The notes below the pieces were generated by a model. It made no database searches. It worked only from the letters and a program-made list of their open reading frames with translations, and was not told where the DNA came from. Position numbers and translations under genes: made by a program. A stretch of DNA of 64,000 nt from Citrus sinensis (taxonomy: Eukaryota > Streptophyta > Magnoliopsida > Sapindales > Rutaceae), in the NCBI RefSeq assembly GCF_022201045.2, contig NC_068562.1:6306001-6370000 (forward strand), written 5' to 3'. This document shows, in pieces, positions 3,186-63,110 of the stretch (its first letter is position 1; each line of letters opens with the position of its first letter).

Positions 3186-3274
3186 GTTATTATTTAAAAC
3201 CGAGAAGCGAAGAAAGAAACTAGAGAGACCTTGGAATTTATTTCTGTGAGTAGAAAAGAGCTTGGGGTGTTAAT

Positions 3275-13053: not shown

Positions 13054-14423
13054 CTTTATGTGTTATGTGTGGTGTAGTAGAGATATATATATGAAACTTA
13101 AAAGAATATATAGGGAATGCGAAGAGGAATTGGTCAGTTGAAGAATGTAACGCTCAGTCCAAAACGTAGGGAGGGAGAATATGAAGGGCAGAAGATCCTG
13201 CCCACTTAAAAATTGGCCAGATCTTGCGTGGTTGTTGAGAAAAATGATATCTAAATTCAGCATCAAAATTTTGTGAACTTATAAAGAGTTTAATTTCACA
13301 AGCATTGGTGTTACATGACTATTAATGTGGTCATGATTGTACTTGAGAACAATATTGCAAACATCACATAAGGTATATGGACAGGTTGAGTGTCCGTAAA
13401 GGCAAGGCCGATAATGGTGTCATTGGAGTACTTGAATTATGTGAGAGTGAGAGATAGAGGTTGGTGGGCTAACTGGCTAGTTTACTAATCAATGACGTTT
13501 AATTTTGGTCGAATAAAGTTGGTTTGATGTTTCTATTATAGTTAGGTGTGATCCATTGACAATTTGTAACTTTTTTTCATTATTTCTCTTTTTTCGGATT
13601 TTGTTAGATTAACTACATTATATGTGCCATTTTTTGTGTTGGGGTTGTTTTAGATGTTTAGGGTTTACTAATATGAATATTCACTTTCACATTAAAATTT
13701 TTAACTTTTTACTAGTTAATATTTATAGAAATTTATAGGGTGAACTCAAACTCAAAATAGTAACTCAGAGTATGAGTTAAGTCTATGGCCTTTTATATGG
13801 TATGGGAATCAAGCTGACCAATGCCTGAGCCTACTGTACCTTTTCACATGACAGAAACTTGCCTAAGTGACTGATTTACACACGACGAGAGTGGTAAAAA
13901 GAGAATTTCATATTGACTGAAAATAATTAATTGCTGAACTAATAACATAAAATTGAACAATCCTCACACTTAAACAAAATTTTTGGCTTTTTAAGGGGTC
14001 CGATGATAATGTATCTCTCTAAGGTAGAGAGAGTTTGGTTTTCTTAAAGATTGCTTAAAAAAAAAAAAGGTTTTGCTACACACCCCAATTGCTTTCTAGG
14101 TTTGTTGCAATGTTATGAAGCCGAAAACGACCAGATAACTTAAATTAGGGTATAGCAATTACCTTTTCTTAACAACAGACTTTGAAAAATGGAACTCCGA
14201 ACCCATTTAATATATATATATATATATATCATCTCAATTTATACACACGTTTCTCTTGTTATATGGATCATATATTCCAAGTAGTATTGCCGTAACCAAA
14301 CCATAGAATTTCTCTTGTTTTCCATTCTTATACAACATATGTACGCGCGACTATAATAATGTATGCTTCAGTCTGCCACTGTCATTTCCAAGTTGATTAA
14401 CATGGAAATTCGAATTAACGCTC
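13054..14423. other. Intergenic, protease 5' flank and RLK 3' flank
   Basis: No gene recognised. An AT microsatellite lies at about 14211-14230. The part beside 13053 should hold the protease promoter, but I cannot assign a firm TATA box because the obvious TATATATAT (13083-13092) sits only 30 bp from the ATG. Confidence 0.4.
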
Positions 14424-28730: not shown

Positions 28731-30153
28731 CTATGGGCGGTGGATATGATTAGGGTTCTGAAGTGAGAAATGGGTTTGCACAGGAAATGAGTTGTTGTTG
28801 TTGTTGTTGAATGGTAATGAAGAGAAAGCAAGGTTTGTAGGTGGGTAATTCATGGCGTGATGATGATCAGGCTTTTGATGGCCTGGGTTTTCTAATGCTT
28901 TGACTTGTGACCTAAGAAACTTGAGATAGTTTGCAGCCTCATCAAGCATTGAAGCAGTATCCATCTTGCTTCCACCAGGAACCAGCCTCTGCAAAACCCT
29001 AATCCTTTCACTGATCCTCTCCCTTCTTTGCCTTGCAGCTACTGTTTGTGGATCGGTGGATATTCTAACATTCTTCCTCTTAGGCTTTTCCACCACCTCT
29101 AAGCCTAAATTCACTGGCCTAAACGCCGCTGCCCGATAAATCATCTCTTTCATATGAGCAATGGCCTCAGGGTCAGGTTCCTCAATAGATGAAGATACTG
29201 AAGAGTTATTACTTGCCTGTAACTGAAAATTGATGTTTGCTGAGCTTGGTCGCTTGTCCAATCTTGGTTTCTTTGCTTTCGGTGGATTCTCAGAGATGAG
29301 CTTAAAACCTCCTCCTTGAAAAAGATGGAATTGCTCACTTTGATGATCATCAATATTTTTCCTCTTTGTTGAACCAGGCCTTAATTCCTCCTGATGAACA
29401 ATTCTGCCATTGTTGACATACTGAACCGAGGAACAATGAGAGATTGTTTCGTGATCAAGCTCATTATTGACTGGACCATTGTTGTTTCTTGCAAAATTAT
29501 TGGGAGCATTGTTTTCAGACTCTCCGGATGAAACTGCACTACTGTTGGAACCAAAGTTCCACAGGTTTCTACAATCAGAAGAGAACAGAATGGAGATCCC
29601 ATCATCATCTTCAGCCGATGTCTCGGCGGAGTTGCTGTTAGTTGCTGAAAGCAAGCAATCAAGTGACTCAAGAGAGCATGTAGTTGTTGAAACACCAACA
29701 GCCTTATTAGCAACTTGTGATTGATCAGCCATGCCAAACTCAGCTCCAGGAGCCGATAGATTTCCCGATAGCGGCGTTGCCTCACAACTCAATTCTGGAT
29801 CAACAGTGTCTTGCAAGCTTGCCGCGTGATCTAGTCCACGCTGCAATATTAAATATAATGAATGAGACAACATGCATTTATTGAATTAAACTAAAGCACA
29901 ACCTAGCCAGTACTTGATGAATTAATCATTTAATATTAGCCTAGCTAGCTAGCTAGCTTACTCTTTCAAAATTTGAATTGAGTGGTGATATTTGAGCTTT
30001 CTGCAACACTTGAACTGGATAGAAGAGGTCTTCTGTTGGATCCATCTTGCCACCGTAACCATTATAGCAATTTGATGTGTTGGAAATCATGAACCTTTCT
30101 TCAGCTTCATGTTGTTGGTTGCTCCATATCGATGCCATACTAATACTATCCAT
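28731..30153 (-). CDS. bHLH87: bHLH transcription factor, bHLH87-like
   Basis: Two coding exons, 30153-29962 and 29840-28731, join in phase 0 across a GT-AG intron of 121 bp to give 433 residues. The start [14 protein letters not shown] was chosen because upstream in-frame codons look like leader; the second Met, five codons on, is also possible. The N-terminal 250 residues are acidic and Ser/Asn-rich. A basic patch ([10 protein letters not shown]) precedes the conserved [20 protein letters not shown] block. The bHLH lies at about 322-380: [26 protein letters not shown], loop VPGGSKMDT, helix 2 [18 protein letters not shown]. The basic region has Gln and Ala at the usual His5 and Glu9 positions, as in the HECATE/INDEHISCENT group, so canonical E-box contacts are altered. 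The C-tail has six Asn in a row. It acts in the nucleus, probably as a dimer in development. Confidence 0.88.
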
Positions 30154-43266: not shown

Positions 43267-46200
43267 ATGAGGGAAGGAAAAGAAGAAGGAAAGGTGACTA
43301 GTCCTATGTTTCCTAGGCTTCATGTGAATGATAAAGAGAAAGGAGGACCAAGGGCACCTCCAAGAAACAAAATGGCTCTCTATGAACAGCTTAGCATACC
43401 CTCTCACAGGTACAGCTCTGGATCAGCACCTATGTTGCCTCTTCCACCTCCCAATGGCACCAGCTTGGTTTCTTCAATGTCGTCAAGCAATGTGAGTTTA
43501 ATTCATATGGTTTTCTGATCTTAATGTGCTGAATTCACGTTTTAAATTGTCTCTCTTATATCTATGATCAATGATCTCTGTTTGATCTGCACTTCTGTAA
43601 AATTGATTGCTGAGAGCTAATCTTATGCCTTTAGCTCTCTTTAGGGAACAATTTACTCTATTTGGTAAAGGTTTCAGGTCTCTGTTTGCTAAAAATTTCA
43701 GGTTTTGCTCATATGATGCACCTTAGGAGTTTACTGAATTTCTGAATTTTCATTCGTAATGAATTGAGAAATGTGAGTTTAGGTGTGATCTCGGAACACC
43801 TTTGTATTGTTTTATTTTTCTGTCCACTTTATGCTGATTTTAGTTAGTTTCAAGGGAGCAATATTTTTCCTAATTTTTCTGGTGTCAGTCTAAGCTTTGG
43901 ATTGATTTGTTCTCTACCTTTCTTGTGTGTCTGCAACTAAATGCTTATTTGAGGTCCCATGATCTGACTGCTGACGAAACATTCCATTACCTTGCGTCGG
44001 CGTTGACTCCATTAAAAGTTGCCTGTATGGTTTTGAATATACACAATTTAATGTTCTCTGCTATATTGTCTCTTTTGATTTTAATAATTGATTTGTTATT
44101 TCAGGGCGGCCATGAAAGGAGTGTGTTTACCCAACTTTGCAACTCCCCTGCACCTTCGTTTTCAGCTGAGAAGCTTCATTCTTATTCCTCCAATGGTATC
44201 AAGCTGAACAATATGATGGCAAATCAAGAAAGGAAATCAGTGAAACCTTCAAATTACCAATGTTTGAATGCCGCCGGACCTTTGTCATCAAATTCTAAAA
44301 GCAGTTCACCGAAGCCAAGTAATTTCTCCAACTTTAGGCATTTTTCATTGAGGAAGCCTGAAGATGAGGATGATTTAAGAGTTTCCTCTGCCCAGTTAGG
44401 AATATCTCCGCATTGTAGTAACAGTCAGCAGAGCAAAGATCGGAAATTTAAGCAGAAGAAACGATCTGCTTTAGGAGATATCAAGTCCAGACCACGTACG
44501 AGGAACCAGAATGATGAGGACACTCCTCAGACAAGTCCGGACCCTGTGGATAATTATACTTCAATCCCATTGAATAGAGATAGAGATTTGGCAGATGTGT
44601 CTTCCATCCGCCCATCTAAAGTTAGGCATCTGGAATCATTGAAGAGAGCACATTCATCTTTAAACCAAGAAAATAGAAGTAGTTCAATGGAAACCCTTAA
44701 CAGTTTACACAGTACCAATTCAAGGTTACATCAAGAATGTGTGGCTTTGAGGGATGAAGTGGCCCATAATTATAGCCTTCTGATGGAAACTGCCATGGAT
44801 ATAGACAAGGACAATGCTTTCAAGGTGAGAAAGGAATCATGTTTGAGGCCGTCGCTTGGAGATGATAATAGCAGTCCTAAAGAGCTTGAAAATGTTGAAT
44901 GTCATGAAGACAAGAATGAGAGGTCTGTGCAGGTGAGAGAAGTAGACAAACAAGATAATGTTTCCAACACCTATATGGTGGGCTCAGTATCAGCTTTGGC
45001 TGTATCCCCAGATGATGTTGTGGGAGTCATAGGTGAGAAACAATTTTGGAAAGCTAGAAGAGCTATCATCGAGTAAGTATTGCATCTCAAGAGCATCACA
45101 TGATTGAGTAGTTGCTTTTTCTTGTGATTATGATTATCTTCAAATGATTGACTGGTTGCTTTTTGTGTGATTATGATTATCTTCATATTATATTACCTAT
45201 AAGTCGATTCCTCACATCAGAATATATTGTTTCCACATCTGAGCAGCATTATGTTTAGATTGGTTTCCGAACTTTATATTTTAGGTGTTCATAGGCTTCT
45301 GGTGAACTCTAGACCATGTGGATATGTGCAAGCAAACTTTCAGGCTCTGTGAATTCAGTGTAGTCTTCAATGAGTTTCCTAAGCAGGAGGGAGTCAAGGT
45401 CTATTCTTCTTTCTAAAATTGAATAAATAGTTATTGACTCTTATTGCCCAATAAATGGTAGGAATTAGGAACAGTGCAGGCCCACTCCAAAGCAGACTGT
45501 CTTAGCGGCCGTTGATCAGATATATTGCATATAGCAAACTTTGTAAGCCTATGCCTTCTGTTAATTCGTAAACTTTTAGTATTTGATGGATTTGTGGTCT
45601 CCTTTTATAAACTGTCGGACTCCCTTCTCTAGTTATGAAGTATTATTATATCTGAAATAACCCTTTCCTGATGTAGTCAGTTTCTGCTTGTGACAGATAA
45701 AATAATCTGAATTTTATTGTTCTTAATCTAATTTGGTTTTTTGATAATATTTCACCAATTCACTAAACATTCATTAACATTAAGTGTTTGAATAAACTTT
45801 TACTGTGTTTTTTTTTTTCCTCAGTCAACAAAGGGTCTTCACTTTGCAAGTATTTGAATTGCATAGACTACTGAAGGTAAGTTGTAATTCCTGGTCAAGT
45901 TTCTCTGCTTTCTTTGCAATAAGATTCATTCATGTTTCTGCTTTCTCTTCTACAAAGGTACAAAAGAAAAACCATGCATAATGTTTAATTGCAACAGGTA
46001 CAAAGATTGATCGCCAGATCTCCAAATTTGCTGCTTGAAGACAACCTCTGTGTAGGCAAACCTCCTTTAAACACCTGTCAAGCTAAGTTGCGATCACTGC
46101 CCTGCATTGTGAAGGCAAAAAATTATTCCCCAAATCCAGATCCCGGTAGTCAATGTGCCGATGACAATGCAGTTGCTAATATTCCGCATCCTTTTATCAA

Positions 46201-47005
46201 TAATGACTCAAGCAAAGGATTTGTATCTCAACAATCAAATAATGGGTCTTGTTCTGGGAATGTACCTCCTGCACCTGGTGCTAACTCGAAGAATATCAAA
46301 CAGACTCCATGGTGTTTCCCACCAACTGGAAATCAGTGGTTAGTTTCTGTGATGTCCCCTTCTGAAGGACTTGTTTACAAGCCCTATACAGGGCCATGTC
46401 CTCCAACCACAGGTTTTGTGGCACCATTCTATGGCAGCTGCAGTCCAGTGAGCTTAAATCCCACAGGCGCTGACTTCTTGAACACGGCTTATGGTGTTCC
46501 AGCATCTCACCAAGAAGGGATTGGAATTCTTCCGACCACCCCTCCTTTGGGTCAGACTGGCTTTCCACCATATGGCATGCCAGTCATGAATCAGTCTATT
46601 TCTGGCACAGCTGTTGATCAAATGATCCCATTTCCTCCAAAAGACCAGTCAAAGGACAATCATTTATCAATGGTGGACATTAACTTCATGATACCCCATC
46701 AAAGTTCACGTAACATGTCAAGCCAGATGAATCGAGTGATAACAAGCTGTCTTGAAAAATTTCAGGCTTCTAAAGAGAGTGAGGTACAGGCAAGTACTGC
46801 TAGTAGTCCCTCTGAAAGGGCTAAGGGGGATGCACTCCCTCTGTTCCCTATGGCACCAATAGTTCAAGCATCAGATCAAAATGATCAAACTGGTGAGCAG
46901 CAGGCACGGGTGATTAAGGTTGTTCCTTGCAACCCTAGATTAGCAACAGAATCAGCTGCTCGAATTTTCCGGTCCATACAGGAAGAGAGAAAACAGTATG
47001 ATTAA
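43267..47005 (+). CDS. ELF3: EARLY FLOWERING 3, evening-complex clock protein
   Basis: Four coding exons: 43267-43491, 44105-45072, 45825-45876, 45998-47005. They join in frame to 750 residues with GT-AG introns. All four conserved ELF3 blocks are visible. The N-terminal block is [19 protein letters not shown] then [18 protein letters not shown]. The central block (about 372-440) is [20 protein letters not shown] followed by [19 protein letters not shown]. The third block is [20 protein letters not shown] (about 527). The C-terminal block is [20 protein letters not shown] then [15 protein letters not shown]3 is a nuclear scaffold that joins ELF4 and LUX in the evening complex, represses PRR and PIF genes, and gates light and temperature input to the clock and flowering; this is family knowledge. 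Unlike Arabidopsis ELF3 no polyglutamine run is present. Intron 2 holds a short tandem duplication (TGATTATGATTATCTTCA) at about 45123-45186. Confidence 0.95.
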
Positions 47006-47544: not shown

Positions 47545-48483
47545 ATGGCTCTTAACTTCGATTTCAACCGCTTCCACCCGAGCCCCTATATTCGCCTACC
47601 AAATCGTTTGCAGTTTCAAGATTTGCCAAATCCCTTTCTTCTTCAAGGTTTTGAATATTATGTTGTAATAGATTTTGAAGCGACGTGCGACAAAGAAAGA
47701 AATCTTCATCCACAGGAAATAATTGAATTTCCATCCGTGGTGGTGAGTGGTGTAAGCGGAGAGATTATAGCATGTTTTCAAACTTATGTGCGGCCAACTT
47801 TTGAACCCTTATTGACTGATTTTTGCAAAGAATTGACAGGAATTCAACAGCACCAAGTTGACAATGGCACTACTCTCGGGGAGGCTTTATATTTTCACGA
47901 TAAATGGCTTTTGCAAATGGGTTTAAACAACACCAACTTTTCTGTGGTGACATGGTCAGATTGGGACTGTCAGGTAATGCTGGAATCGGAATGCCGAATC
48001 AAGAAGATTCAAAAGCCTGCTTATTTCAACCAATGGATCAACTTAAGGGTTCCATTCAGCAAGGTTTTTGGCGACGTGAGATGCAATCTGAAGGAGGCCG
48101 TTGAGCTAGCTGGACTTATTTGGCAGGGTCGTGTTCACTGTGGCCTTGATGATGCCATTAATATTGCTAGATTACTCTCCGTCATCATGAGAAGGGGATT
48201 CAAATTCTCCATCACTAAGTCTTTGACGCCACAAGCAAATCCAAATTGTCTGACATGGAACCGGCACCAGTTTCTTGAGCCACAAGCTATGCATACTCCT
48301 CCACATACTTCACTTATACAAGAATTTGAAGATTGTCGATACTGTTACTGTGGAACAAAAAGCATAAAAAAGGTGATTCAAAGACCGGGACCAAAGCGAG
48401 GGAGCTTCTTTTTTGGATGCGGGAACTGGACGCCTAATAGGGGTGCTTGTTGCAATTATTTTCAATGGGCTACTACTTCTTAG
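47545..48483 (+). CDS. ERI1/ERI2-like 3'-5' exonuclease with GRF zinc finger (cassette 1)
   Basis: Intronless, 312 residues. A DEDDh exonuclease domain spans about 36-215 with all catalytic residues: D43 and E45 in IDFEATC, D141 in TWSDWD, and H198 with D203 in HCGLDDAIN. The C-terminus (about 264-308) is a GRF-type zinc finger: CRYCYCG, PGPKRGSFFFGCGN, ACCNYFQWA. The combination of ERI1-like exonuclease and GRF finger matches the ERI2/EXOD1 layout. ERI1 relatives trim 3' ends of small RNAs, histone mRNA stem-loops and 5.8S rRNA; the substrate here is unknown. The start was chosen at MALNFDFNRF because upstream codons translate a microsatellite and the two paralogues start at the equivalent Met. 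It converges on the neprosin gene with 229 bp between the stop codons. This is the only intact exonuclease of the three. Confidence 0.88.
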   Translation: MALNFDFNRFHPSPYIRLPNRLQFQDLPNPFLLQGFEYYVVIDFEATCDKERNLHPQEIIEFPSVVVSGVSGEIIACFQTYVRPTFEPLLTDFCKELTGIQQHQVDNGTTLGEALYFHDKWLLQMGLNNTNFSVVTWSDWDCQVMLESECRIKKIQKPAYFNQWINLRVPFSKVFGDVRCNLKEAVELAGLIWQGRVHCGLDDAINIARLLSVIMRRGFKFSITKSLTPQANPNCLTWNRHQFLEPQAMHTPPHTSLIQEFEDCRYCYCGTKSIKKVIQRPGPKRGSFFFGCGNWTPNRGACCNYFQWATTS

Positions 48484-48712
48484 CTCAAAAAGTGCTTAAT
48501 GAAATGAATTTTCTCTCTGTTTATTGGTGCTTGTAATTGGATAATGGGTATTACGTATAACCAGTGAATCCATGGCCAATTATTTAACTCCTTAATCTTA
48601 ACCATGTAAATAGAATAAATGCATCTGCAAACTTTAGTGATAATTAATTCTGCTTTGATATTATTTAGTAATAACATGCATGAAACGCAACTTTACATTG
48701 ACAAGGACACTT

Positions 48713-50933
48713 TCACGGGCACTTATCTGAATATCCTGGACCTCCAAAATAAAATGAGATACCGTCGCCCTCGTATTTTGCAAAACGTAAATCGTAGCAG
48801 GGAGGTTTTGTCACATAAACCTGAAGATCTTCGGGATCTCTCATATTGCCAGACTCATCAACGTATCCTATTTTCTCGAAAAAACAAGCTTTTCCAAAGG
48901 ATTCTTCGGGAAAATGGCCACTGCCCATTTGAGTTGAAGTGTGGTGTCCCGCAAATTCGCTATTTGTTATCTCCCCTCCCCAATTTATCTCAGTTGAACA
49001 GTCAGCTAAACTTGTGAAGATGGAGCCTGGCCAATACCCTATTAACTGGTCTTGCATTAGAAGCCACCAATTCCCACTGCTCTTATCCTGAAATAACAAT
49101 TGTTGACTTTCATCTTACATATATATAATATTCTAAGGAAAATGATCAAAATCCGTGTTTGCAGAAATTAATCATTTTTCTCCTCATGTTTCAAACTCCC
49201 TTGCTCTAAAAGGATTATGTTAATTTTTTAATTTTTAATTTTATTATTTTACCCCTACAATCAAACTTATGCTTTTTTTTTTTTTCTCTTTTTTGTGCTT
49301 ATTAATCAATCGCTAGCAACTAACTGCGCGAATGTCAGCAATTAATCAGTAGAAGAAAGAAAAAAACATTCAAAAAAAAAAAGTAAAAGAAAGAAAGAAA
49401 GATAGAAGTAGTCACGTCTGATTCTAGAAGGAAAATAATAAAAGAGACACAAAATAAATTGAATAAAAATACAATTTTTTTAACAACACAATTGATCATT
49501 TTCTTTAATTCTTTTATATGTCACCAATTCCAACTTGAATTTGTGTATAAACAGAACTTGAATTAAAACTGAATTAACGAGATTAATTACCTTGGTTATG
49601 GTGATGATAATTTCAAATTGCTCAGCACCATATCGGGAAACCGGTTCCACCGCAGCACCAAGGCTAATTTGGGTGGTAGTTTGCACAAAACCAGGGCAAA
49701 CAAGATTGTAGCAACCTGTGCTACGGTAGTCATCCCTCTAACAACCACATGATAGTTAACATATTCATAAAGCAAGTTATTAAGAAACTAATAATATGTT
49801 CATTTGTGATAAATATAATGGAAGGACTCAAATATACTTACAGTCCAGTATGTGAACAATCTTGTCTTATTCTCACCATTGTTAACCTGGATTAACCATG
49901 ATGAATTATTATGTTACTGATTGTTCTCTCAAATTTAATTGAATTTTTAAAATTTAATTGGCTGATCCAGCTTACCAACCATCCAACCTCCATAGAATTC
50001 GCTTCATCTCCTTCACCTGACCCAACCCAAATTTGTGCGAAACTGAATTCTCCTTGGTATGTTGCGGGGTTCCATACGTTGATTGTTGCGCGAGCACCAT
50101 AGTACTGCCCACCAACTAGGGCCACTAGTGCATACTAATTCATATATATTTGTGTTTAGTTTTCTTTTAAGCAAATATAGAAGATAAAATCAGTAGGCAG
50201 ACACAAAAATTAGCTAGTGAAATTATATATAATAAATAAAAAATTAATATAAAGCTGAATGTGACCTCATGACCAGGGGGAGCACTGAAATCATTGGCCT
50301 GTTTCTTTTGCGAAACTGTTGGGTAGCTGCGACGACGACGATTAGAATGTGGTGTTCTTAATATGGGGATAGTTCCTTCAGGGCATTCTCCATTCTTGTG
50401 CCAACTTTGAAAGAGTATATTGTGGTTGTTTTCTGATTCAGTTCCGCTTGAATGCACATGGGGTTTCATCTATGAATTTGGAGAAAAAAAAAAACATTGG
50501 ACAAATTCGATTAATTAGAAATGATTCTAAAATTACGTAATCCTTATGTATATATGTACTAAGTACTAACCTGTATGGTGTGATTTTTCAGAAGTGGATG
50601 ATTAAAAGCAGGTTGTTTGTTGATATCCACACAGTCAATCACATCACCATCTTCACTCTGCAAACATATTTATAATAATACGACTTGAAGCTTTCAAAAT
50701 TCATAACCTTTGGTCCTTGAACCAGCATAATAAGAATATATTAAAGGAGGAATTAAGTTCATGTATGCAATAAATTTAATAACCTTAATGGTTTTGACCG
50801 TTCCCTCATGCATGAGCAGCTCTCTATTTTTCATGAATTCGACCCTTCTGCCTTCAACAAATAGGATCAACATGTGAAATAGCATTATTAACACAAATTT
50901 GCATTTGGCACTCTTATCATTCCTATCATCCAT
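48713..50933 (-). CDS. Neprosin-type secreted prolyl endopeptidase (cassette 1)
   Basis: Seven exons: 50933-50784, 50657-50571, 50469-50266, 50134-49976, 49886-49842, 49737-49591, 49087-48713. All are GT-AG and all phase 0, giving 388 residues. Signal peptide: [17 protein letters not shown] (about 12-28). Next comes the neprosin activation domain (former DUF4409), with [20 protein letters not shown] and [15 protein letters not shown], then [17 protein letters not shown]. The catalytic domain (former DUF239) has [60 protein letters not shown] and a C-terminal [11 protein letters not shown]. Candidate catalytic glutamates are E196 (NSMEVGW) and E303 (NWGGEI), 107 apart, like E188/E297 of Nepenthes neprosin. 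Neprosins are glutamic peptidases that cleave after proline in the apoplast. The endogenous role is unknown. Confidence 0.88.
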
Positions 50934-52120
50934 TGTTGAACTTCAATAGTTTTATTTTTTTTCTGATTTAACTTTCTGATGAAAATTTTCACCATTTGGG
51001 CCAAGTATTTATTCTCCTACTCATCTTGTTTGTATGCTAGGTAAAGTTAGGAATCATACAATTACGTAGCATGTTTGGATATCTAACTCTATATTTAATT
51101 ATATAACAAGAAAAAAAAAGAAATAAATTCTATAATTTTGTTCATCCAATATGTCTATATTCACGACTTTTCTTTTATTATTGGAAACTAATAAACTGAT
51201 GTAATTAATTAAAACAGAATTAGATATATAGTGTCAATGAGTCACCTCTTTATCTACTTAATTTATTCCGTCCGTTGATAAAATCTCCTTTCTTTAGTCT
51301 CTTAATTCATGCTGATAGCTTGATTTATCACCAATTCCATGATTTAATTTTATTAGACCACTTAATTTGAAAGTTTCATGTGCCACATACATTTCAACCA
51401 CATTAATAACATATTCTTTAGGTATTTGTAGGAAGACGACCAATTAAGACTTTTCATCATAAGACATATCTTATCATTTTGACTTGACATATACTAATCA
51501 CAAAAAATTATGAATAAAATAAAATATACTTCCACGTAAAACTCAAATCCTTGATAAGGTATGGAGGTGTTCATAGATCACCACACAACCAATCAATGAT
51601 TTGTGATATTGATCTTAGTGCATATATTTGTTACAAGATGGACTTTTTCTATTGAGTTTTTTTTGAAATATTTTTATATATAATGTCTTAAAATTTTTTA
51701 TTTTGTTTTTATTTTTTTCTGAAACAAAAATTCCTAGGCATTTAAAGTGGGGCCAGAAAGCTCTGACATCACACTAATTAGAGGGTTGAAACTGCAAAAT
51801 AAGCAAATAAAAATAAGAAGAACAAGAATGGTTAACAAAATTTTTGGGATGATAGGTGCATTTCGGGGTACTATGAAATAGTGGGAGGTTCTAGAGATTT
51901 TACCTATTAAACCCATGATCACCTGCATATATTTCTTTTTAATTTAAATCCATGATAATCTAAGTTATGTGAGACTTTAAAGATTTTGTATTCTTATGCA
52001 ACATGTGCTTTTACAACTGTGTGTATAGTTAAGATCTTATTATGTACAAAATAGCTAATAGTAATAAAATTTATACTTGAGTATAACTTAGATATAATTA
52101 CTGGTGAATTATTAGTATGC
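50886..52120. repeat. Segmental duplication, copy A (neprosin 5' flank)
   Basis: This 1.2-kb stretch, from within neprosin exon 1 through its promoter to the exonuclease pseudogene, aligns almost base for base with 56785-58033. Shared landmarks include TTTGGGYCAAGTATTTATTCTC, AGGAAGACGACCAATTAAGAC, and AAAGTGGGGCCAGAAA. It contains an AATAAATA-like TATA candidate (minus strand, about 51005-51012) for the neprosin gene. No gene lies between 50934 and 52147. Confidence 0.75.
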
Positions 52121-52147
52121 AAATAACAATCAATAACGTGAGATAGA

Positions 52148-53393
52148 ATGGCTCTTGACAGCCTCCAAAGAAACCCCCTTTTCCCGAATTACCCCTTTCG
52201 TCTTCCTCAGCCAAATCCTTTTCTTCCGCAAAAGCTTCAGGATTTTGATTACTTTGTAGTTGTCGACTTCGAGGCCACGTGTGACAAAAAGATTCCACAC
52301 CCACAGGAAATAATAGAATTTCCTTCGGTTATAGTAAGTGGTGTCACTGGACAGATTACAGTCTGTTTTCAAATTTACGTACGCCCAACTCACAATAAAT
52401 TGCCTACGGAATTCTACAAGGAGCTGACAGGAATTCAGCAGCATCAAGTTGACAAGGCATTTTTCTTGGCGAGGCATTATTTTTACATGATAATTGGCAG
52501 CAGCACATGGGCGTTACGCCCACCAACTTTGCTGTGGTGACGTGGTCAGATTGGGATTGTCAAGTCATGCTGGAATCCGAATGCCGCTTCAAGAACATTC
52601 CAAAGCCTTCTTATTTCAACCGTTGGATCAACTTGAGGGTTCCATTCAGCAAAGTTTTTGGCGACGTGAGGGGCAATTTGAAAGAGGCTGTTGAGCTGGC
52701 TGGCATTGTTTGGCACGGCCGTGTTCACTGTGGCCTTGATGACTCCATAAATATTGCAAGTAAGCCTGCTTATTTCAACCGTTGGATCAACTTGAGGGTT
52801 CCATTCAGCAAGGTTTTTGGCGACGTGAGGTGCAATTTGAAAGAGGCTGTTGAGCTGGCTGGCATTGTTTGGCACGGCCGTGTTCACTGTGGCCTTGATG
52901 ACTCCATAAATATTGCAAGTAAGCCTGCTTATTTCAACCGTTGGATCAACTTGAGGGTTCCAATCAGCAAGGTTTTTGCCGACATGAGGTGAAATTTGAA
53001 AGAGGCTGTTGAGCTTGTTTGGCACGGCCGTGCTCACTGGGGCCTTGATGACTCCATAAACATGGCAAGATTTCTTGCAGTCATCATGCAGAGGGGATTT
53101 AAATTCTCAATTACTAAATCTTTGACGCCGCCGCAAGATATTACTCAGGATTCTATGATGACGTGGAATCGTCATCATCAGTTTCTTGTGCGGCAGCGCA
53201 AGTGCACTTTTCAGCATACTTCTCGTGATCCAGCAGAAGTTGAATAATTTCGGTATTGCTTCTGTGGAGCCAAAAGCTTCAAGAAGATAATTCGAAAGCC
53301 AGGACCAAAGTGTGGAAGCTTCTTTTTCGGATGTGGGAACTTGACGCCTAACAAGGGTGCTTGGTGCAATTATTTTCATTCGGCCACCGCTTG
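52148..53393 (+). pseudogene. Exonuclease pseudogene 2, with 53-codon triplication
   Basis: Second copy of the ERI1/ERI2-like exonuclease. The N-terminus is in frame (MALDSLQRNPLFPNYPF, catalytic VDFEATC) up to QQHQVDK near 52457. Small deletions then shift the frame, and it resumes in another frame at TNFAVVTWSDWD. A 159-bp segment (KP[SA]YFNRWINLRVPF to INIAS) occurs three times in tandem, at 52603, 52762 and 52921. Because 159 is a multiple of three the frame survives, but the third unit has a TGC-to-TGA stop at about 52990 and a 9-bp deletion. A second stop (GAA-TAA) lies at 53246 before the zinc finger, which is otherwise readable (CFCGAKSFKKIIRKPGP to NYFHSATA). It cannot make a full enzyme. 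Its promoter is also mostly missing compared with copies 1 and 3. Confidence 0.85.
52603..53070 (+). repeat. 159-bp in-frame tandem triplication
   Basis: Three head-to-tail copies of a 159-bp unit starting AAGCCT(T/G)CTTATTTCAACC at 52603, 52762 and 52921. The first two junctions read GCAAGTAAGCCTGC. Units 1 and 2 differ at only a few positions. Unit 3 has extra substitutions, a stop codon and a 9-bp deletion. Copies 1 and 3 of the gene have a single unit, so the expansion is private to this copy. Confidence 0.85.
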
Positions 53394-53960
53394 ATTATAT
53401 AATTTACTCAATTTTCAGTTTTGTTTAATGCCTATAATTAATTAATTAATTAATTAAGGTTGGGATGTTAATTCTTCAATTACTTAGTGTCAATCAAGCC
53501 TCTCTCTCGTATTGAGGTGTATTTAATTTATGCAATCTTTCTTTCATTTTCTGTTTAAACTTCAGAAGCATACATGTATGCTTTCTACAACTTGATAATT
53601 TTGGAGAGAATATATATTTTGACTGATTATTTAACTTCTACTATTGACTTTGAGAGAGACTAGACCAATAAGACCTTAAATAAAAATAAATAAAGTTAAA
53701 AGTGAATTTTTCTAACTTACCCTAAATTTTTTTCACATGCTTTAACCATTTCATTTTATATATGAAGAAACCCACATTGTTAATTATACCATTAATTTCT
53801 GAAAAAAAATGTACCTATTTTTTGGGGTCTCCTTTTCAAATCATAAGGTACAACCACACAACTAGTTATTGCAAAAACGAATAATAAAGACACTTCCGAT
53901 GTTATTTAGTAATGAGAAGCTAGTAGTACAACTTTATTCAATTGATGATACATATTACTT
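53394..53960. other. Convergent spacer of cassette 2
   Basis: Lies between the exonuclease pseudogene and the neprosin 3' end and aligns with 60207-61079 apart from an LTR insertion in the latter. (TTAA)n-type repeat at about 53437-53457. No gene. Confidence 0.5.
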
Positions 53961-54700
53961 TCATTGGCAATTTGCTGAATATCCAGGACCTCCAAAATAA
54001 AAGAAGACACCAAACTTGTTATCTTTTCCTGTACGTAAATCGTAGCAGGGGGGTCTTGTCACAAAAGGTTCAAGATTTTCAGGATCTTTGACATTGTTAC
54101 CTTCATCAAAGTATCCAAGTTTTGTGAAAAAACTAGCTTTCCCGTAGGCTTCATTAGGAAAATGGCCACTTCCCATTTGAGTTGAAGTGTGATGACCATT
54201 AGGTTGGTTATTGACTATCTCTCCTCCCCAAGATATAGCATCAGAAGTGCCGGCTAAATGTGTAAAGATGGAGCTTGGCCAATACCCTACTAACTGGTCT
54301 TGCACTTGCAGCCACCAATTTCCATCATTATTATTGAACTGATCAAAGAAGAAAAACAAAATCAATGCAGTCAGTCTCTCCCTAATGGTATTGGGGTTTA
54401 ATTTAATCCACAGTTAACATTCCTTTTTGCGTTGTCCTAGTAAAATTAACAGACATGAGAATGAGAATAACTGTTACTACGTGCCTTATGTATGACAATG
54501 GATATGTCACGTTGCTCCCCACCATACTTCGAAACAGGTTCTATAGACCCACCGAGGGCTATATTTTTGTTTGTTTGCACAAAACCAGGGCAATCAAGAT
54601 TGTAGCAACCTGTGCTTTGGTAGCCATCACTCTAACAACCATAAGAAAACGTGTTAGCAAAAATTTATAAGCAATTAATCTAGTCATATTCTCTCCCCCC

Positions 54701-54764
<64 letters not shown>

Positions 54765-55972
54765 AGCAATTTAAGAATTTTTTCAATTTTTAATATGGAA
54801 CTGAGGAATGATCAAATCTACTTACAGTCCAATATATGAACAATCTTGTTTTCTTCTCGCCATTGTTAACCTGAAATCATGAATTATTTCCTTAGTAAAC
54901 ATTCAAACAGGACTTGAATTTTTGGTCAATTTATATTTAGTTTTAACTATTAAAATCATATGAAGTCTGAACTCCGCTTTCCCTAGGAAATTTAATTAAT
55001 ATTTCCACACGTGCTATAAATATGCAATCTGTATGCATGTTTCATTGGCTGAAGCTTAATTACCGTCCATCCAGCCTCTAAAGAATTCAACTCATTTCCA
55101 TCGCCGGCCAAAACCCAAATTTGAGCGATACTGAGTTCTCCGAAATTTGTTAGAGGGTTCCAAACGTTGATTGTAGCACGAGCACCATAGTAATTCCCAT
55201 CAACTGCAGAAACTTGTGCATACTGATAATCATATATGTTTTTAGTATTTTTTTTTCATACAAAAAGAAGATGAAATTGTTAGATACAATTAAAAGATCT
55301 TAAAAGTATAATTAAGTGAAAAATCATTATAATTAAAGTTAAATTCTGACCTCATGATTAGAGGGATTATTGACATCGTTTAGCTGTGCTACTTTCTTGT
55401 GCAAAAATGCTGGGTAGCTGCGTCGACTATGATTAAAATTCTGTGTTCTTCTCAGTAGGGGGACAGTTCCTTCGGGGCATTCGCCATTCTTATGCCAACT
55501 TTGAAAGAGCATATTCGGATTGTTTTCTGCTTCATCGATTCCTCTTGATTGTGCATGGGGTTTAATCTATGAATTTAAAAGACAAAAATTTTATTTTTCG
55601 AACCATTTAATTAGAAATCTTTAATGCAAATTTTATGTACTAACCTGTACGGTGTGATTTTTCAGCAGTGGGTGATTAAAAGCAGGTTGTTTTCTTATGT
55701 CCACACAGTCAATCACATCACCATCTTCGCTCTGCAAAAATATAACTCAATTTGAGCTTTGAAAATTTATAACCTTAAACAAAAATTGAAAAAAAAAGAA
55801 TGTTAATAACCTCAATGGTTTTGACTGTTCCCTCGTGCATGGGCAACTCTCTTTTTTTCATGAATTGATCAACTCCTCTTCCATCAACAAATGTTATCAA
55901 CATGTGAGAAAGCAGTATTAAGAAAAATTTGTAGTCTCCAAGTTTGATACTCTTATCATTCCAATCAGCCAT
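53961..55972 (-). CDS. Neprosin-type endopeptidase (cassette 2)
   Basis: Seven exons: 55972-55811, 55731-55645, 55566-55351, 55222-55064, 54870-54826, 54631-54485, 54338-53961, all phase 0, for 397 residues. Signal peptide region YKFFLILLSHMLITFVDG. Activation domain: [38 protein letters not shown]. Catalytic domain: [67 protein letters not shown]. Candidate catalytic glutamates are E204 (NSLEAGW) and E312 (SWGGE). Five introns are GT-AG. Intron 6 starts with GC (AAG|GCACGT at 54484-54483) where cassette 1 has GT. GC-AG introns are spliced at low frequency in plants, so the gene may still work. The nearby GT (54480) would shift the frame into a stop. The start was set at MADWNDKS by analogy with cassette 1; an upstream in-frame Met adds eight residues. 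Confidence 0.82.
54701..54762. repeat. Compound (CT)n(AT)n(AC)n microsatellite in neprosin intron 5
   Basis: Runs of CT, then a short TATATA, then AC repeats, within intron 5 of the cassette 2 neprosin gene. The equivalent intron of cassette 3 has the same array with different lengths (about 61815-61877). It predates the second duplication and has since slipped. Confidence 0.8.
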
Positions 55973-56784
55973 GTTGAACTTTAATTTTTTTTGCAAACTT
56001 AATTTTCTTGTGATAAAATCGGGCCATTGGGCGTTACTATTTATTCACCAATCGGTTTTGTTTGTTCTTCATAGATAAGTTAAGAATAATTGGAAGTGCT
56101 TAACTTACTAATTATGCTTGGATGTCCGTCGCTGTATCATTTTATAAAAAGGAAACCAACACTAACAAAATAATGGATCCTCACTGTAATTGTATGTAGA
56201 CATTCTAAACTTATTTTCATCCAATGGCTCGTGTAAAAATTTTCTTTTATTGGTAATTTTACTAACAATAAAATTTACGTTGGATGAACTGTATAGTTTG
56301 AATGCGTCACCTCGATATCTAATTTGCTCGGCCTTTAACAAAATCTCCAATGTGGTTTCATCATTCATGCAGCTTAATTTATCACTAATTACATGGTTAT
56401 GGATGGTTTATATTTTAATTAGCTCATGAATTAGTTCTAATATTATATAAAAATTTATGTACTCAACTTTTTACTCAAAAGTTTGCTCATATATAGTTAA
56501 AGATTGTGCCAAGCTTAAATACTTGAAGAGACTATAAAATACTTTTTTAAAACCTCCATCATGCGTTGGTCGACAATTTTATCTTAAATTTATCATGTGA
56601 AAAAGGGTGTGTATGCCTCACTTGAGCATTAGTTGACTTTGATACATATTATCTAGTAAAGCTCGTCGTTATTTGGTTTTAATACTATCCCATGAGTTTA
56701 AACTTGTACTACAATATAGATCATGTCAAGGTTTTTAAAAACATGAAATTAGTTGGTCGGTATTACTAGAATCCAAGTAAGAGA
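55973..56784. other. Neprosin 2 promoter region
   Basis: 5' flank of the cassette 2 neprosin gene, aligning with 63111-63750 in front of cassette 3. Shared GGGCCATTGGGCGTTACTAT and a following TTTATTC give a minus-strand GAATAAATAG about 65 bp from the ATG, a TATA candidate also present in cassette 1. No gene here; open frames at 56162-56429 are not conserved proteins. Confidence 0.45.
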
Positions 56785-56834
56785 ATTATGAACACAGATT
56801 TGCATTTGGTACTCTTATCATTCCTATCATCCAT
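56785..56834 (-). pseudogene. Neprosin exon 1 fragment at duplication breakpoint
   Basis: The minus strand reads [13 protein letters not shown] and then loses similarity. This is the first 16 or so codons of the cassette 1 neprosin gene ([12 protein letters not shown]), followed leftwards by unrelated sequence. It marks the left breakpoint of the segment that was duplicated to make cassette 3. Confidence 0.75.
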
Positions 56835-58033
56835 TGTTGAACTTCAATATTAATTTTTATTTTTTTCTTATTTAACTTTCTGATGAAAATTTTCACCATT
56901 TGGGTCAAGTATTTATTCTCCTACTGATCTTGTTTGTATGCTACGTAAAGCTAGGAATCATACAATTACGTAGCATGTTTGGATATCTAACTCTATATTT
57001 AATTAAATAACACGAAAAAAATGAAATAAATTCTATAATTTTGTTCATCCAATATGTCTATATTCACGACTTTTCTTTTATTGGAAACTAATAAACTGAT
57101 GTAATTAATTAAAACAGAATTAGATATTTAGTGTCAATGAGTCACCTCTTTATCTACTTAGTTTATTCCGTCCGTTGATAAAATCTCCTTTCTTTAGTTT
57201 CTTAATTCATGCTGATAGCTTGATTTATCACCAATTCCATGATTTAATTTTATTAGACCACTTAATTTGAAAGTTTCATGTGCCACATACATTTCAACCA
57301 CATTAATGACATATTCTTTAGGTATTTGTAGGAAGACGACCAATTAAGACTTTCCATCATGAGACATATTTTGTCATTTTGACTTGACATATACTACTCA
57401 CAAAAAAATTATGAATAAAATAAAATATACTTCCACATCCACATAAAACTCAAATCCTTGATCTCAAGAATAAGATATGGAGGTGTTTATAGATCACCAC
57501 ACAACCAATCAATGATTTGTGATATTGATCTTAGTGCTTATATTTGTTACAGGATGGGATTTTTCTGTTGAGTTATTTTAATTATTTTTATATATAATGT
57601 CTTAAATTTTTTTATTTTGTTTTTATTTTTTCTGAAACAAAATTTCCTAGGCATTTAAAGTGGGGCCAGAAACCTCTGACATCACACTAATTAGAGGGGT
57701 GAAACTGCAAAATTAGCGAATAATAATAAGAAGAACAAGAATGGTTAACAAAATTTTTGGGATGATAGGTGCATTTTGGGATACTATGAAATGGTGGGAG
57801 GTTCTAGAGATTTTACCTATTAAACCCATGATCACCTGCACATATTTCTTTTTAATTTAAATCCATGATAATCTAAGTTATGTGAGACTTCAAAGATTTT
57901 ATATTCTTATACAACATGTGCTTTTACAATTGCGTATATAGTTATGATCTTATTATGTATAAAATATCTAATAATAATAAAATTTATACTTGAATATAAC
58001 TAAGATATAATGACTGGTGAATTATTAGTATGC
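56785..58033. repeat. Segmental duplication, copy B
   Basis: Aligns with 50886-52120 over about 1.25 kb with scattered substitutions and small indels (for example extra CCACATCCACATAAAA near 57432 and extra ATCTCAAGAATAAG near 57461). It is the old neprosin 1 promoter carried along in the second duplication and now has no neprosin coding sequence behind it. Confidence 0.75.
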
Positions 58034-58436
58034 TAATAGACACCGATCACAATCTTATATTTGCTCAACACAAAATTATACCAGCATCATGAAATCCAAG
58101 TCCCATTTTAATTATGAGTTTGATTATAACCTAATTACGTGCCGCTATAAGATTTTTTATTACATCTTTACTGATTCTGATTACTTCTCCATTCCATTAA
58201 GGAAATCAAACCCCAAACCTTTATTAAAGAAATTCTAATGCAAATAGGATTAAGCTATATCTGAAATCAAATACCAGCCCAATTCCTAACGCAACTAGAA
58301 ATTAAAAATATATAAAAATAATTAGGAAATCAAAACTAGATTAGAAAAATAAATTTATCATCCACACACACACGCACGCACACACACACAGTGTCTTAAA
58401 TCCAAAATTAATCTACATCAACAATCAATAACGTGA
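58034..58436 (+). promoter_or_regulatory. Ancestral exonuclease promoter, retained in cassette 3
   Basis: Aligns in part with the promoter of the intact exonuclease (about 47240-47500). It is absent from cassette 2, where TTAGTATGCAAATA runs straight into ACAATCAATAACGTGAG. A CA-type microsatellite lies at about 58363-58390. It is now cut off from its gene by the hAT insertion. Confidence 0.5.
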
Positions 58437-58444
58437 GATAGAAT

Positions 58445-59435
58445 TAGGGATGGCAAAATCCGGGTCCGGTTCCGGGTTCGGCCTTCCCGATTCCAGACCC
58501 GGATGTCATTTTCTTTTACCGGACCCGGATATAATCCGGATTTTTTGCATGTGGGTCCGGTCCGGGTTCAACCCAGAAAAATTAAGGTTTCTGGATTCCG
58601 GGTTTGAAACCCGGATTGTCTTTTGAATTATGATTAAAAAATGAAAAAAAATTGGAAACTACAACTCAAATCACAAATTAAAACTGATTAACCATTTTTT
58701 TTCCATGAAATTCAGGCAGGTACACAAGATAGACCCTAATATGAAGGCGTTGCAAATACTACCAACAAAATTCAATAAATTAATAACCTAATATAGGAAG
58801 TGGATGCACGAAAATTACAATTAATTTTGAATTGTAATGGCATCAAAGACCGTGGCCCACCAAATCCACCATGCAATGCCATCAAAGACAGCCCCCACCA
58901 TGGAATATGACAAACGAGAAGCAGAGATGGGCTTAGAGGTGGAAGCTAATCCACTCAATTTGCAATAGTTGAACGATTGAGAAGGAATGGAGGTTGCAGT
59001 AGTGCAAAGAAGAGGAACACAGCAACTGATGATGATAATGAACACAGAAAAGAGAAAATGGCTGAAATGATGACGACGACGACTTGATTTGATGAAGAGA
59101 AAAGGAAATATGGTTGGCGGCCGGTGGATGTGAGATTTGAGAAGAGGAATGCGAATTGCAAAATTAGGGCCGGCTGTGCGCATTGTTGTTTACTTCCTTT
59201 CTTTTATATTTATATTAAAAATTATTAAAAAATTAATATTAAAATGAAACATATCCGGGTCCGGGTTTTAGATATGCAGGTTCACCCAAACTCTGACCCG
59301 GTCCGAATATCATCCGGGTTCATAAAATTAAATCCAGATCCGTATTTTATTCAACTCCAATACGGGTTCAACCCGGACCGGATTATCCGGGTTCGTCCGG
59401 ATCCGATCCGGGTCCGGATTATTCTGCCATCCCTA
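58445..59435. mobile_element. Non-autonomous hAT element inserted at exonuclease 3 start codon
   Basis: 991-bp element with ends TAGGGATGGCAAAATCCGGG and (reverse complement) TAGGGATGGCAGAATAATCC. It is flanked by an exact 8-bp duplication gatagaat (58437-58444 and 59436-59443). About 170 bp at each end are packed with CCGGGTCCGG / CCGGAT words, as expected for hAT subterminal binding sites. The interior has no transposase; a minus-strand open frame of 120 codons (58821-59183) matches nothing I know. The empty site is visible in cassette 2 as a single gatagaat (52140-52147) directly at the ATG. Confidence 0.92.
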
Positions 59436-59441
59436 GATAGA

Positions 59442-60206
59442 ATGGCAATTGACAGATTCCAAAGAAACCCCCTTTTCCCAAATTATCCCTTTCTTCTTCC
59501 TCAGCCAAATCCTTTTCTTCCGCAAAAGCTTCAGGATATTGATTACTTTGCAGTTGTCGATTTCCAGGCCCCGTGCGACAAAAATAAGACTCCACACCCA
59601 CAGGAAATAATAGAATTTCCTTCGGTTATAGTCAGTGGCGTCACCACAACTTTGCTGTGGTGACTTGGTAAGATTGGGATTGTCAAGTCATGCTGGAATT
59701 CGAATGCCGCTTCAAGAACATTCCAAAGCCTGCTTATTTCAACCGTTGGATCAACTTGAGGGTTCCATTCAGCAAGGTTTTTGGCGACGTGAGGTGCAAT
59801 TTGAAAGAGGCTGTTGAGCTGGCTGGCATTGTTTGGCACGGCCGTGTTCACTGTGGCCTTGATGACTCCATAAATATTGCAAGATTACTTGCAGTCATCA
59901 TGCAGAGGGGATTTAAATTCTCAATTACTAAATTCTTTATGCCGCCGCAAGCAATTACTCAGGATTCTGTGATGACGTGGAATCGTCATCATCAGTTTCT
60001 TGTGCCGCAGCGTATGTCCACTTTTCAGCATACTTCTCGTGATCCGGCAGAAGTTGAAGAATTTCGGTATTTTCTGTGGAGCCAAAAGCTTCAAGAAGGT
60101 AATTCGAAAGCCAGGACCAAAGTGCGGAATCTTCTTTTCCGGATGTGGGAACTGGACGCCTAATAAGGGTGCTTGCTGCAATTATTTTCAGTGGGCCACT
60201 ACTTGA
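59442..60206 (+). pseudogene. Exonuclease pseudogene 3
   Basis: Third exonuclease copy. It starts MAIDRFQRNPLFPNYPF, with the ATG overlapping the hAT target duplication. The first exonuclease motif has decayed from DFEATC to DFQAPC, losing the catalytic Glu. About 175 bp that encode the central part are deleted at a CAC microhomology (near 59645), and TGG-TAA follows. The frame from 59690 then reads FKNIPKPAYFNRWINLRVPF and HCGLDDSINIARLLAVIMQRG in one copy only, without triplication. A frameshift before the zinc finger gives a false end at about 60163; the finger is still legible in another frame (PGPKCGIFFSGCGN, CCNYFQWATT). No functional product is expected. Its promoter is separated from it by the hAT element. 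Confidence 0.88.
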
Positions 60207-60603
60207 TGACATAATTCGCTCAATTTTCAGTTTTGTTTAATGCCTATAATTAACTAATTAAGGTTGGGATGTTAATTCTTCAATTAATTAGTGTTAATCA
60301 AGTTTGTCTCTCGTACTGAGGCATATTTTAATTTATTCAATCTTTCTTTCATTCTCTATTTAAACTTCGGAAGCATGCATGTACACTTTCTATAACTTAA
60401 TAATTTTGGAGAGATTATATATTTTGACTGATTATTTAACTTCCACTATTGACTTAGGAGAGACTAGACCAATAAGACCTTTAATAAAAAAAAAATGAAA
60501 TTAAAATTGAATTTTCTAACTTAACCTTAATTTTATTAACATGCTTTAACCATTTCATTTTATATATGAAGAAAGTCACATTGTTAATTATACCATTAAT
60601 TTC
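60207..60603. other. Convergent spacer of cassette 3
   Basis: Aligns with 53394-53802 of cassette 2. No gene. Confidence 0.45.
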
Positions 60604-60914
60604 TGTTAAGGAAGCTCATTGTGCTGAGCTCATGAAGAATAAGAAGGTGAAGGAGTCGTTAGTCTCAGCAAGTGAAGTTAGTCAACAGTGCCAGCTCATC
60701 AGTGCCAAATCACCAGAGTTAGTTATGATAGATAACATGTCAGCACAAGTTGTTAAAGTTTGTTATTAATCGTTTTAATGTGTATGTAACTAATCTCGTG
60801 AGTATCTAGGATGTATTGATTTAATTATAATGTAATGTGAAGAATCCAAAATTAATGAAATAAATTTTCCTCTGTAAATTTTCTCTCAAAACAAATAACT
60901 CCAGTTTTCTTTCA
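60604..60914 (+). mobile_element. Solo LTR (Copia-like) with 5-bp target duplication
   Basis: 311 bp, begins TGTTAAGGAAGC and ends TTTTCTTTCA, so TG...CA, flanked by an exact 5-bp repeat atttc (60599-60603 and 60915-60919). The paralogous stretch of cassette 2 (near 53797) reads CCATTAATTTCTGAAAA without the insert. No internal retrotransposon sequence is present, so it is a solo LTR left by recombination, or a very small LTR-derived element. The short open frame at 60566-60769 is mostly LTR sequence. The Copia call is inference from LTR length and style. Confidence 0.82.
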
Positions 60915-61814
60915 ATTTCTGAAAAAATGTACCTATTTTTTGGGGTCGCCTTTTCAAATCATAAGGTACAACCACACAAACTAATTATTGCAAAAACGAA
61001 TAATAAAGACTCTTCCGATGTTATTTAATAATGAGAAGCTAGTAGTACAACTTTATTCAATTGATGATACATATCACTTTCATTGGCAATTTGTTGAATA
61101 TCCAGGACCTCCAAAATAAAAGAAGACGCCAAACTTGTTATCTTTTCCTGTACGTAAATCGTAGCAGGGGGGTCTTGTCACAAAAGGTTCAAGATTTTCA
61201 GGATCTTTGACATTGCTACCTTCATCAAAGTGTCCAAGTTTTGTGAAATAACTAGCTTTCCCGTAGGCTTCATTAGGAAAATGGCCACTTCCCATTTGAG
61301 TTGAAGTGTGATGACCATTAGGTTGGTTATTGACTATCTCTCCTCCCCAAGATATAGCATCAGAAGTGCCGGCTAAATGTGTAAAGATGGAGCTTGGCCA
61401 ATACCCTACTAACTGGTCTTGCACTTGCAGCCACCAATTTCCATCATTATTATTGAACTGATCAAAGAAGAAAAACAAAATCAATGCAGTCAGTCTCTCC
61501 CTAATGGTATTGGGGTTTAATTTAATCCACAGTTAACATTCCTTTTTGCGTTGTCCTAGTAAAATTAACAGACATGAGAATGAGAATAACTGTTACTACG
61601 TTCCTTATGTATGACAATGGATATGTCACGTTGCTCCCCACCATACTTCGAAACAGGTTCTATAGACCCACCGAGGGCTATATTTTTGTTTGTTTGCACA
61701 AAACCAGGGCAATCAAGATTGTAGCAACCTGTGCTTTGGTAGCCATCACTCTAACAACCATAAGAAAACGTGTTAGCAAAAATTTAGAAGCAATTAATCT
61801 AGTCATATTCTCTC

Positions 61815-61817
61815 CCC

Positions 61818-61877
<60 letters not shown>
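61815..61877. repeat. Compound microsatellite in neprosin 3 intron 5
   Basis: (CT)n followed by (TA)n and (CA)n; counterpart of 54701-54762 with a longer TA and shorter CA block. Confidence 0.8.
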
Positions 61878-62742
61878 TTAGTAATTTAAGAAAATTTTCA
61901 ATTTTTAATATGGAACTGAGGAATGATCATATCTACTTACAGTCCAATATATGAACAATCTTGTTTTCTTCTCGCCATTGTTAACCTGGAATCATGAATG
62001 ATTTCCTTAGTAAATATTCAGACAGTACTTGAATTTTTGGTCAATTCATATTTAGTTTTAACTATTAAAATCGTATGAAGTCTGAACTCCGCTTTCACTA
62101 GGAAATTTAATTAATAATTCCACACGTGCTATAAATATGCAATATGTATACATGTTTCATTGGCTGAAGCTTAATTACCGTCCATCCAGTCTCTAAAGAA
62201 TTCAACTTATTTCCATCGCCGGCCAAAACCCAAATTTGAGCGATGCTGAGTTCTCCGAAATTTGTTAGAGGGTTCCAAACGTTGATTGTAGCACGAGCAC
62301 CATAGTAATTCCCATCAACTGCAGAAACTTGTGCATACTGATAATCATATATGTTTTTAGTATTTTTTTTCATACAAAAGGAAGATGAAATTATTAGATA
62401 CAATTAAAAGATCTTAAAAGTATAATTAAGTGAAAAATCATTATAATTAAAGTTAAATTCTGACCTCATGATTAGAGGGATTATTGACATCGTTTAGCTG
62501 TGCTACTTTCTTGTGCAAAAATGCTGGGTAGCTGCGTCGACTATGATTAAAATTCTGTGTTCTTCTCAGTAGTGGGACAGTTCCTTCGGGGCATTCGCCA
62601 TTCTTATGCCAACTTTGAAAGAGCATATTCGGATTGTTTTCTGCTTCATCGATTCCTCTTGATTGTGCATGGGGTTTTATCTATGAATTTAAAAGAAAAA
62701 TTGTTATTTTTCGAACCATTTAATTAGAAATCTTCAATGCAA

Positions 62743-62796
62743 ATTTTATGTACTAACCTGTACGGTGTGATTTTATGTACTAACCTGTACGGTGTG
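62743..62796. repeat. 27-bp tandem duplication across exon 2 donor
   Basis: Two exact head-to-tail copies of a 27-bp unit, 62743-62769 and 62770-62796, starting ATTTTATGTACTAACCTG. On the minus strand this repeats the last 12 nt of exon 2 with its GT donor and the first intron bases. Absent from cassettes 1 and 2. Confidence 0.85.
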
Positions 62797-63110
62797 ATTT
62801 TTCAGCAGTGGGTGATTAAAAGCAGGTTGTTTTCTTATGTCCACACAGTCAATCACATCACCATCGTCACTCTGCAAAAATATAACTCAATTTGAGCTTT
62901 GAAAATTTATAACCTTAAACAAAAATTGAAAAAAAAAATGTTAATAAGCTCAATGGTTTTGACTGTTCCCTCATGCATGGGCAACTCTCTATTTTTCATG
63001 AATTGATCAACTCCTCTTCCATCAACAGATGTTATCAACATGTGAGAAAGTAGTATTAAGAAAATTTTGTAGTCTCCAAGTTTGACACTCTTATCATTCC
63101 AATCAGCCAT

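Follow-up and report, generated by a model that had tools for sequence, protein, structure and literature searches.

Neprosin of the pitcher plant Nepenthes is a glutamate-class prolyl endopeptidase (PDB 7zu8) with E188 and E297 as its catalytic residues (PMC9343461); the genes described here have in common with it and with the plant LOTR1/HOLO family an activation domain, a catalytic domain and both catalytic glutamates. The family is large in plants and forms tandem arrays: besides LOTR1, Arabidopsis has 42 proteins of the same domain architecture, and one subgroup has eight homologs at consecutive loci on chromosome 4 (PMC8794472). The second family of concern here comprises ERI1, ERI2 and ERI3, which are DEDDh 3'-5' exoribonucleases (PDB 2xri, 7n8v, 1w0h). 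No system joining ERI and neprosin proteins appeared, among the matches listed, in the available text of the literature on neprosin/DUF239, plant ERI1 exoribonucleases and convergent neighbours.

In Citrus sinensis members of the two families lie face to face. Our analysis covered a window of 64 kb (the whole stretch of DNA under study), and open-frame and repeat analysis of its last 17 kb revealed three tandem units, each composed of an ERI-like DEDDh exonuclease locus on the forward strand and then a facing seven-exon neprosin gene on the reverse strand, all inside 47545-63110. A first-pass annotation had described this region as a triplicated cassette. The anatomy of three facing pairs in tandem is borne out by reading frames, Pfam and PDB matches and collinear blocks, but three working pairs are not found; because copy A is the only intact exonuclease, the triplicated cassette fails by content. 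We regard it as very probable that the array arose through ordinary hitchhiking in segmental tandem duplication, with the ERI exonuclease as passenger.

Organization of the array

Homologous pieces are collinear across units A, B and C, and every unit holds both genes. The seven-exon neprosin models were built by hand from splice signals and from homology between the copies.

47545..48483, forward strand: exonuclease copy A, single-exon open frame of 312 aa with a C-terminal GRF-like zinc finger
48713..50933, reverse strand: neprosin copy A, 7 exons, 388 aa, all six introns GT-AG
50933-50784, 50657-50571, 50469-50266, 50134-49976, 49886-49842, 49737-49591, 49087-48713, reverse strand: exons of neprosin copy A
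52148..53394, forward strand: exonuclease copy B, pseudogene with upstream loss, frameshift, 159-bp triplication and internal stops
53961..55972, reverse strand: neprosin copy B, seven exons, all open; 397 aa; intron 6 donor GC and the other five GT
59442..60206, forward strand: exonuclease copy C, pseudogene with insertion, Glu-to-Gln change, deletion, stop and frameshift
61080..63110, reverse strand: neprosin copy C, seven exons, all open; 397 codons if splicing follows copy B

The exonuclease copies

Copy A can be classed by sequence as an ERI-like DEDDh exonuclease with predicted 3'-5' RNA exonuclease activity. It matches Pfam RNase_T at 3.5e-23 (83.4 bits against a gathering score of 24), and its best PDB sequence match is ERI3 (2xri, 4.5e-42), next ERI2 and ERI1; the alignment spans the nuclease domain, and the catalytic positions are conserved in it. 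The D-E-D-H-D residues, the defining catalytic set of DEDDh exonucleases, are present at the DFEATCDK, SDWD and HCGLDD positions in the alignment to 2xri. Unlike ERI1, ERI2 and ERI3, copy A has an extra C-terminal GRF-like zinc finger: Zn_ribbon_GRF scores 25.3 bits, slightly below the Pfam family cut-off of 25.9, and residues 266-310 match the zinc-finger chain 7omk, from Endonuclease 8-like 3, at 4.8e-07. An assignment of copy A to the KapD 3'-5' exonucleases (NCBIfam NF005838) was rejected at 94.2 bits against a curated cut-off of 169. The one stretch of viral contigs matched by copy A was not confirmed (0 of 1).

Copies B and C differ from these known enzymes in being pseudogenes, and neither retains an uninterrupted domain with the catalytic set, frameshifts and stops being present in both. 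Relative to copy A, copy B has a 1-nt deletion inside the domain; the frame shifted in this way contains stop codons at 52990 and 53245. Copy B also carries two additional copies of a 159-bp (53-codon) stretch spanning the last catalytic motif.

52603..53069, forward strand: 159-bp tandem repeat in exonuclease copy B, 3.0 copies (TRF score 794, 93% matches)

Of the 159 bases in the second unit of this repeat, 158 agree with copy C. Copy B is also without approximately 380 bp of upstream sequence found in copy C (58039-58419), and within the region upstream of copy C the stretch 58101-58408 matches the region preceding exonuclease A at 71.8%. The first fragment of copy B still matches Pfam RNase_T (2e-10); the two later B fragments and two C fragments, scanned separately, gave no Pfam match at E 0.01.

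In copy C, Gln replaces the Glu of DFEATCD in the first catalytic motif (active site), approximately 175 bp are deleted, a stop stands at 59669, and a 2-nt deletion shifts the frame. The copy is further separated from its upstream region by an insertion.

58445..59435, no strand assigned: hAT-like element of 991 bp, its target site overlapping the start codon of exonuclease copy C

Its ends are 11-bp exact terminal inverted repeats, and it is flanked by an 8-bp target duplication, GATAGAAT, at 58437-58444 and 59436-59443. Terminal inverted repeats together with an 8-bp target duplication are hallmarks of hAT elements, and on these two features the insert is classed as hAT-like. The ends are CCGGGTCCGG-rich, the ATG itself survives beside the right end, and the element has no long match at other positions of the 64-kb window.

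Near-alike tandem repeats are difficult to assemble, and the lesions of copies B and C might thus be read as assembly or sequencing errors in an array whose three pairs are all intact. We hold this to be extremely unlikely, since part of the damage goes beyond single-base slips: an element with inverted ends inserted at copy C with duplication of its target, the upstream stretch absent from copy B, and the deletion in copy C.

The exonucleases of units B and C have no disabling change in common wherever both copies are comparable, and a single exonuclease loss predating the B-C split was rejected for that reason. The frameshift of copy B falls within the stretch deleted from copy C, so that a common frameshift could have existed at that point. 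The two copies apparently decayed separately, and since they share no lesion where they are comparable, the gene may still have been whole in their ancestor, with both losses falling after the last duplication.

The neprosin copies

Spliced neprosins A and B match Pfam Neprosin (2.9e-73 and 2.7e-73) and Neprosin_AP (2.1e-31 and 2.1e-28) well over the cut-off, and copy A matches the pitcher-plant structure 7zu8 at 3.4e-97. The last exon taken separately matches Pfam Neprosin at 1.2e-38, 1.4e-36 and 3.1e-36 across the three protease copies, the last value being that of copy C, for which the Pfam scan covered this exon only. Equivalents of Glu188 and Glu297 are kept in all three copies, within NSMEVGW/NSLEAGW/NSLETGW and WGGEI; they were placed through the alignment of copy A with 7zu8 and hand-counted against the numbering in PMC9343461, with matching motifs in copies B and C. 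The N-terminus is hydrophobic as judged by eye. The proteins are probably secreted and active as proline-directed endopeptidases; in contrast to neprosin and LOTR1/HOLO, substrate and secretion here are predictions, and one copy has two non-GT donors.

That copy is neprosin C. In a model made by homology to A and B, two of its six donors are non-GT (CT at intron 1, GA at intron 6), and it does not form a spliceable gene with GT/GC-AG introns. Because of these donors, neprosin C may be decaying as well.

Given the family size and the eight consecutive homologs in Arabidopsis (PMC8794472), a neprosin array is ordinary. The chromosome 4 array represents local growth of the same family, as here, whereas the duplicated block in Citrus sinensis additionally carries an unrelated exonuclease gene. 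Searches with a two-row neprosin alignment, whose peptide patterns lay partly on the variable N-terminus, gave no confirmed match among 72 in viral contigs or 39 in prokaryotic genome contigs, and the last neprosin exon gave none among 24 in prokaryotic genome contigs. These searches and the one with exonuclease A are weak tests; being confined to prokaryotes and viruses, they do not bear on gene adjacency in plants.

Selection on the two genes

For the dN/dS counts the broken exonucleases were read in the codon register of copy A, codons with a gap or with a stop in either copy were left out, and the repeat of exonuclease B entered with its first unit alone. The exonuclease gave dN/dS of 0.14 for A-B and 0.12 for A-C, values from which it follows that the gene was constrained before its copies broke and hence is not junk. 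Neprosins A and B differ at 248 of 1167 aligned bases with a dN/dS of 0.49 (0.37-0.68); the six nucleotide gaps all have lengths divisible by three, and neither copy contains an internal stop. These features indicate that the neprosin frames were kept across the older split. When 126 random substitutions with equal odds were simulated on one neprosin copy, 5 of 1000 runs remained stop-free. Between units B and C, dN/dS is 0.43 (0.25-1.36) for neprosin and 0.59 (0.32-1.36) for the exonuclease from codon 37 to the end, and selection and neutrality are inseparable for both genes because the intervals include 1. A claim that neprosins B and C evolved under purifying selection after they separated was accordingly rejected, the interval reaching 1.36.

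History of the duplications

The more recent duplication has left its trace in a pair of matching segments.

50878..52125, no strand assigned: left portion of the unit copied in the recent duplication, starting within neprosin A exon 1 and ending just upstream of exonuclease B
56779..58038, no strand assigned: copy of 50878-52125, 93.2% over 1267 columns

At the start of the second segment, a truncated remnant of exon 1 of neprosin (56779-56834, reverse strand) is the scar of the recent tandem duplication, joining the B and C units; the adjoining junction 56613-56778 gave no clear match. The simplest account would derive units B and C from one tandem duplication whose start lay inside exon 1 of neprosin A and which took exonuclease B and neprosin B along together.

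The split between A and B/C is older than that between B and C. Synonymous divergence (dS) of the exonuclease is 0.99 (0.68-1.52) for A-B and 0.11 (0.04-0.19) for B-C, and that of neprosin is lower, at 0.44 (0.34-0.56) and 0.03 (0.01-0.05), respectively. Exonuclease codons 37-232 give 0.99 for A-B and 0.82 for A-C, and 0.96 and 0.82 when the poorly aligned N-terminus is included. The statement of the first-pass annotation that the two genes were always duplicated together is thus only partly sustained: the blocks fit, but the two genes are unequal in synonymous divergence, a disparity suggestive of gene conversion, of unequal rates or of a more complicated history.

Divergence between units B and C, taken over 18 segments, is patchy. 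Neprosin exons 6-7 with intron 6 (61080-61750 versus 53961-54631) differ at 6 of 671 bases; neprosin introns 1 and 3 differ by 1.3% and 1.6%, and introns 4 and 5 by 5.7-5.8%. Divergence is 4.8% in the spacer, 9.6% in the 5' flank of neprosin and 11.1% in the 3' flank of the exonuclease, whose own pieces differ by 7.7%, 2.5% and 7.8%. Patchwise gene conversion, mainly within neprosin, is a likely cause of this unevenness.

Spacing of the facing genes

The gap from stop to stop is 229 bp in unit A, 566 bp in unit B and 873 bp in unit C. One AATAAA stands on each strand of the unit A gap, positioned so that the 3' ends could overlap, and the convergent genes might accordingly regulate each other in cis as antisense partners, the broken exonucleases acting as RNA only. 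These hexamers are weak evidence because 70% of the gap (160 of 229 bases) is A+T, and the stops stand further apart in units B and C; we rate such regulation as very unlikely. ERI-type nucleases are known for the degradation of siRNA. A more specific version, in which pair A together with RNA from the decayed copies would form an antisense small-RNA-linked locus, the ERI-type nuclease and the secreted protease mutually controlling their expression via overlapping 3' ends, appears to us the least probable of all the readings considered.

Three convergent pairs side by side might also suggest a functional, co-regulated cassette, its exonuclease and neprosin held together by one process. Two of the three exonucleases are broken, damage that the first-pass annotation had overlooked, and the neprosin frames stand open; with one partner lost in two of three copies and the other still readable, a unit of joint function is disfavoured. 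Furthermore, co-expression of Arabidopsis convergent pairs less than 400 bp apart is suppressed, not enhanced (PMC2851598), and pair A falls below this distance by its stops, although the 400 bp refer to gene-to-gene distance and the 229 bp exclude UTR ends. A cassette of this kind has, in our estimate, an exceedingly small chance of being correct.

Probable hitchhiking of the exonuclease

Hitchhiking in tandem duplication, which had been put forward as the likeliest reading in the first annotation, is upheld by the different lesions in two of three exonucleases beside open neprosin frames. The observations comprise block homology, the scar, broken exonuclease copies, open frames and catalytic residues. 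A block with an ERI-family exonuclease and a convergent neprosin would have been duplicated long ago, giving A and the ancestor of B and C; a later tandem duplication, of the segment that starts within exon 1 of neprosin A and spans exonuclease B as well as neprosin B, would then have produced B and C, presumably as a single event of unequal exchange. The passenger exonuclease would have been retained in one copy and have decayed in two, its additional copies probably being dispensable, and the neprosin array would be the part retaining readable copies.

Several results stand against a sharp contrast between the two genes. Exonuclease A is intact and was long constrained (dN/dS 0.12-0.14 against B/C), the splice donors of neprosin C indicate that decay is not confined to the exonuclease, and one joint history for both genes is not clean at unequal levels of divergence. 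With hitchhiking as the preferred explanation, the locus illustrates clearly, on a local scale, how a block duplication can pass for a gene cassette as long as nobody inspects the reading frames: the neighbour taken along disappears copy by copy, and the other family's array endures. The locus further contributes a small set of tandem neprosin genes suited to tracing splice-site decay and possible gene conversion.

Other genes in the window

No tRNA or Rfam match was found within the 64-kb window. On the reverse strand lie an Auxin_inducible gene (2877-3269), which we take to be of SAUR type, a long open frame (11737-13062) in which Pfam recognizes TAXi_N, TAXi_C and aspartyl protease domains, protein kinase fragments (14837-16098) that are presumably receptor-like, and a bHLH protein (28731-29885) that we assume to be HECATE-like. 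Directly upstream of the array, long open frames at 43874-47005 have no Pfam match and, as we suppose, resemble ELF3.
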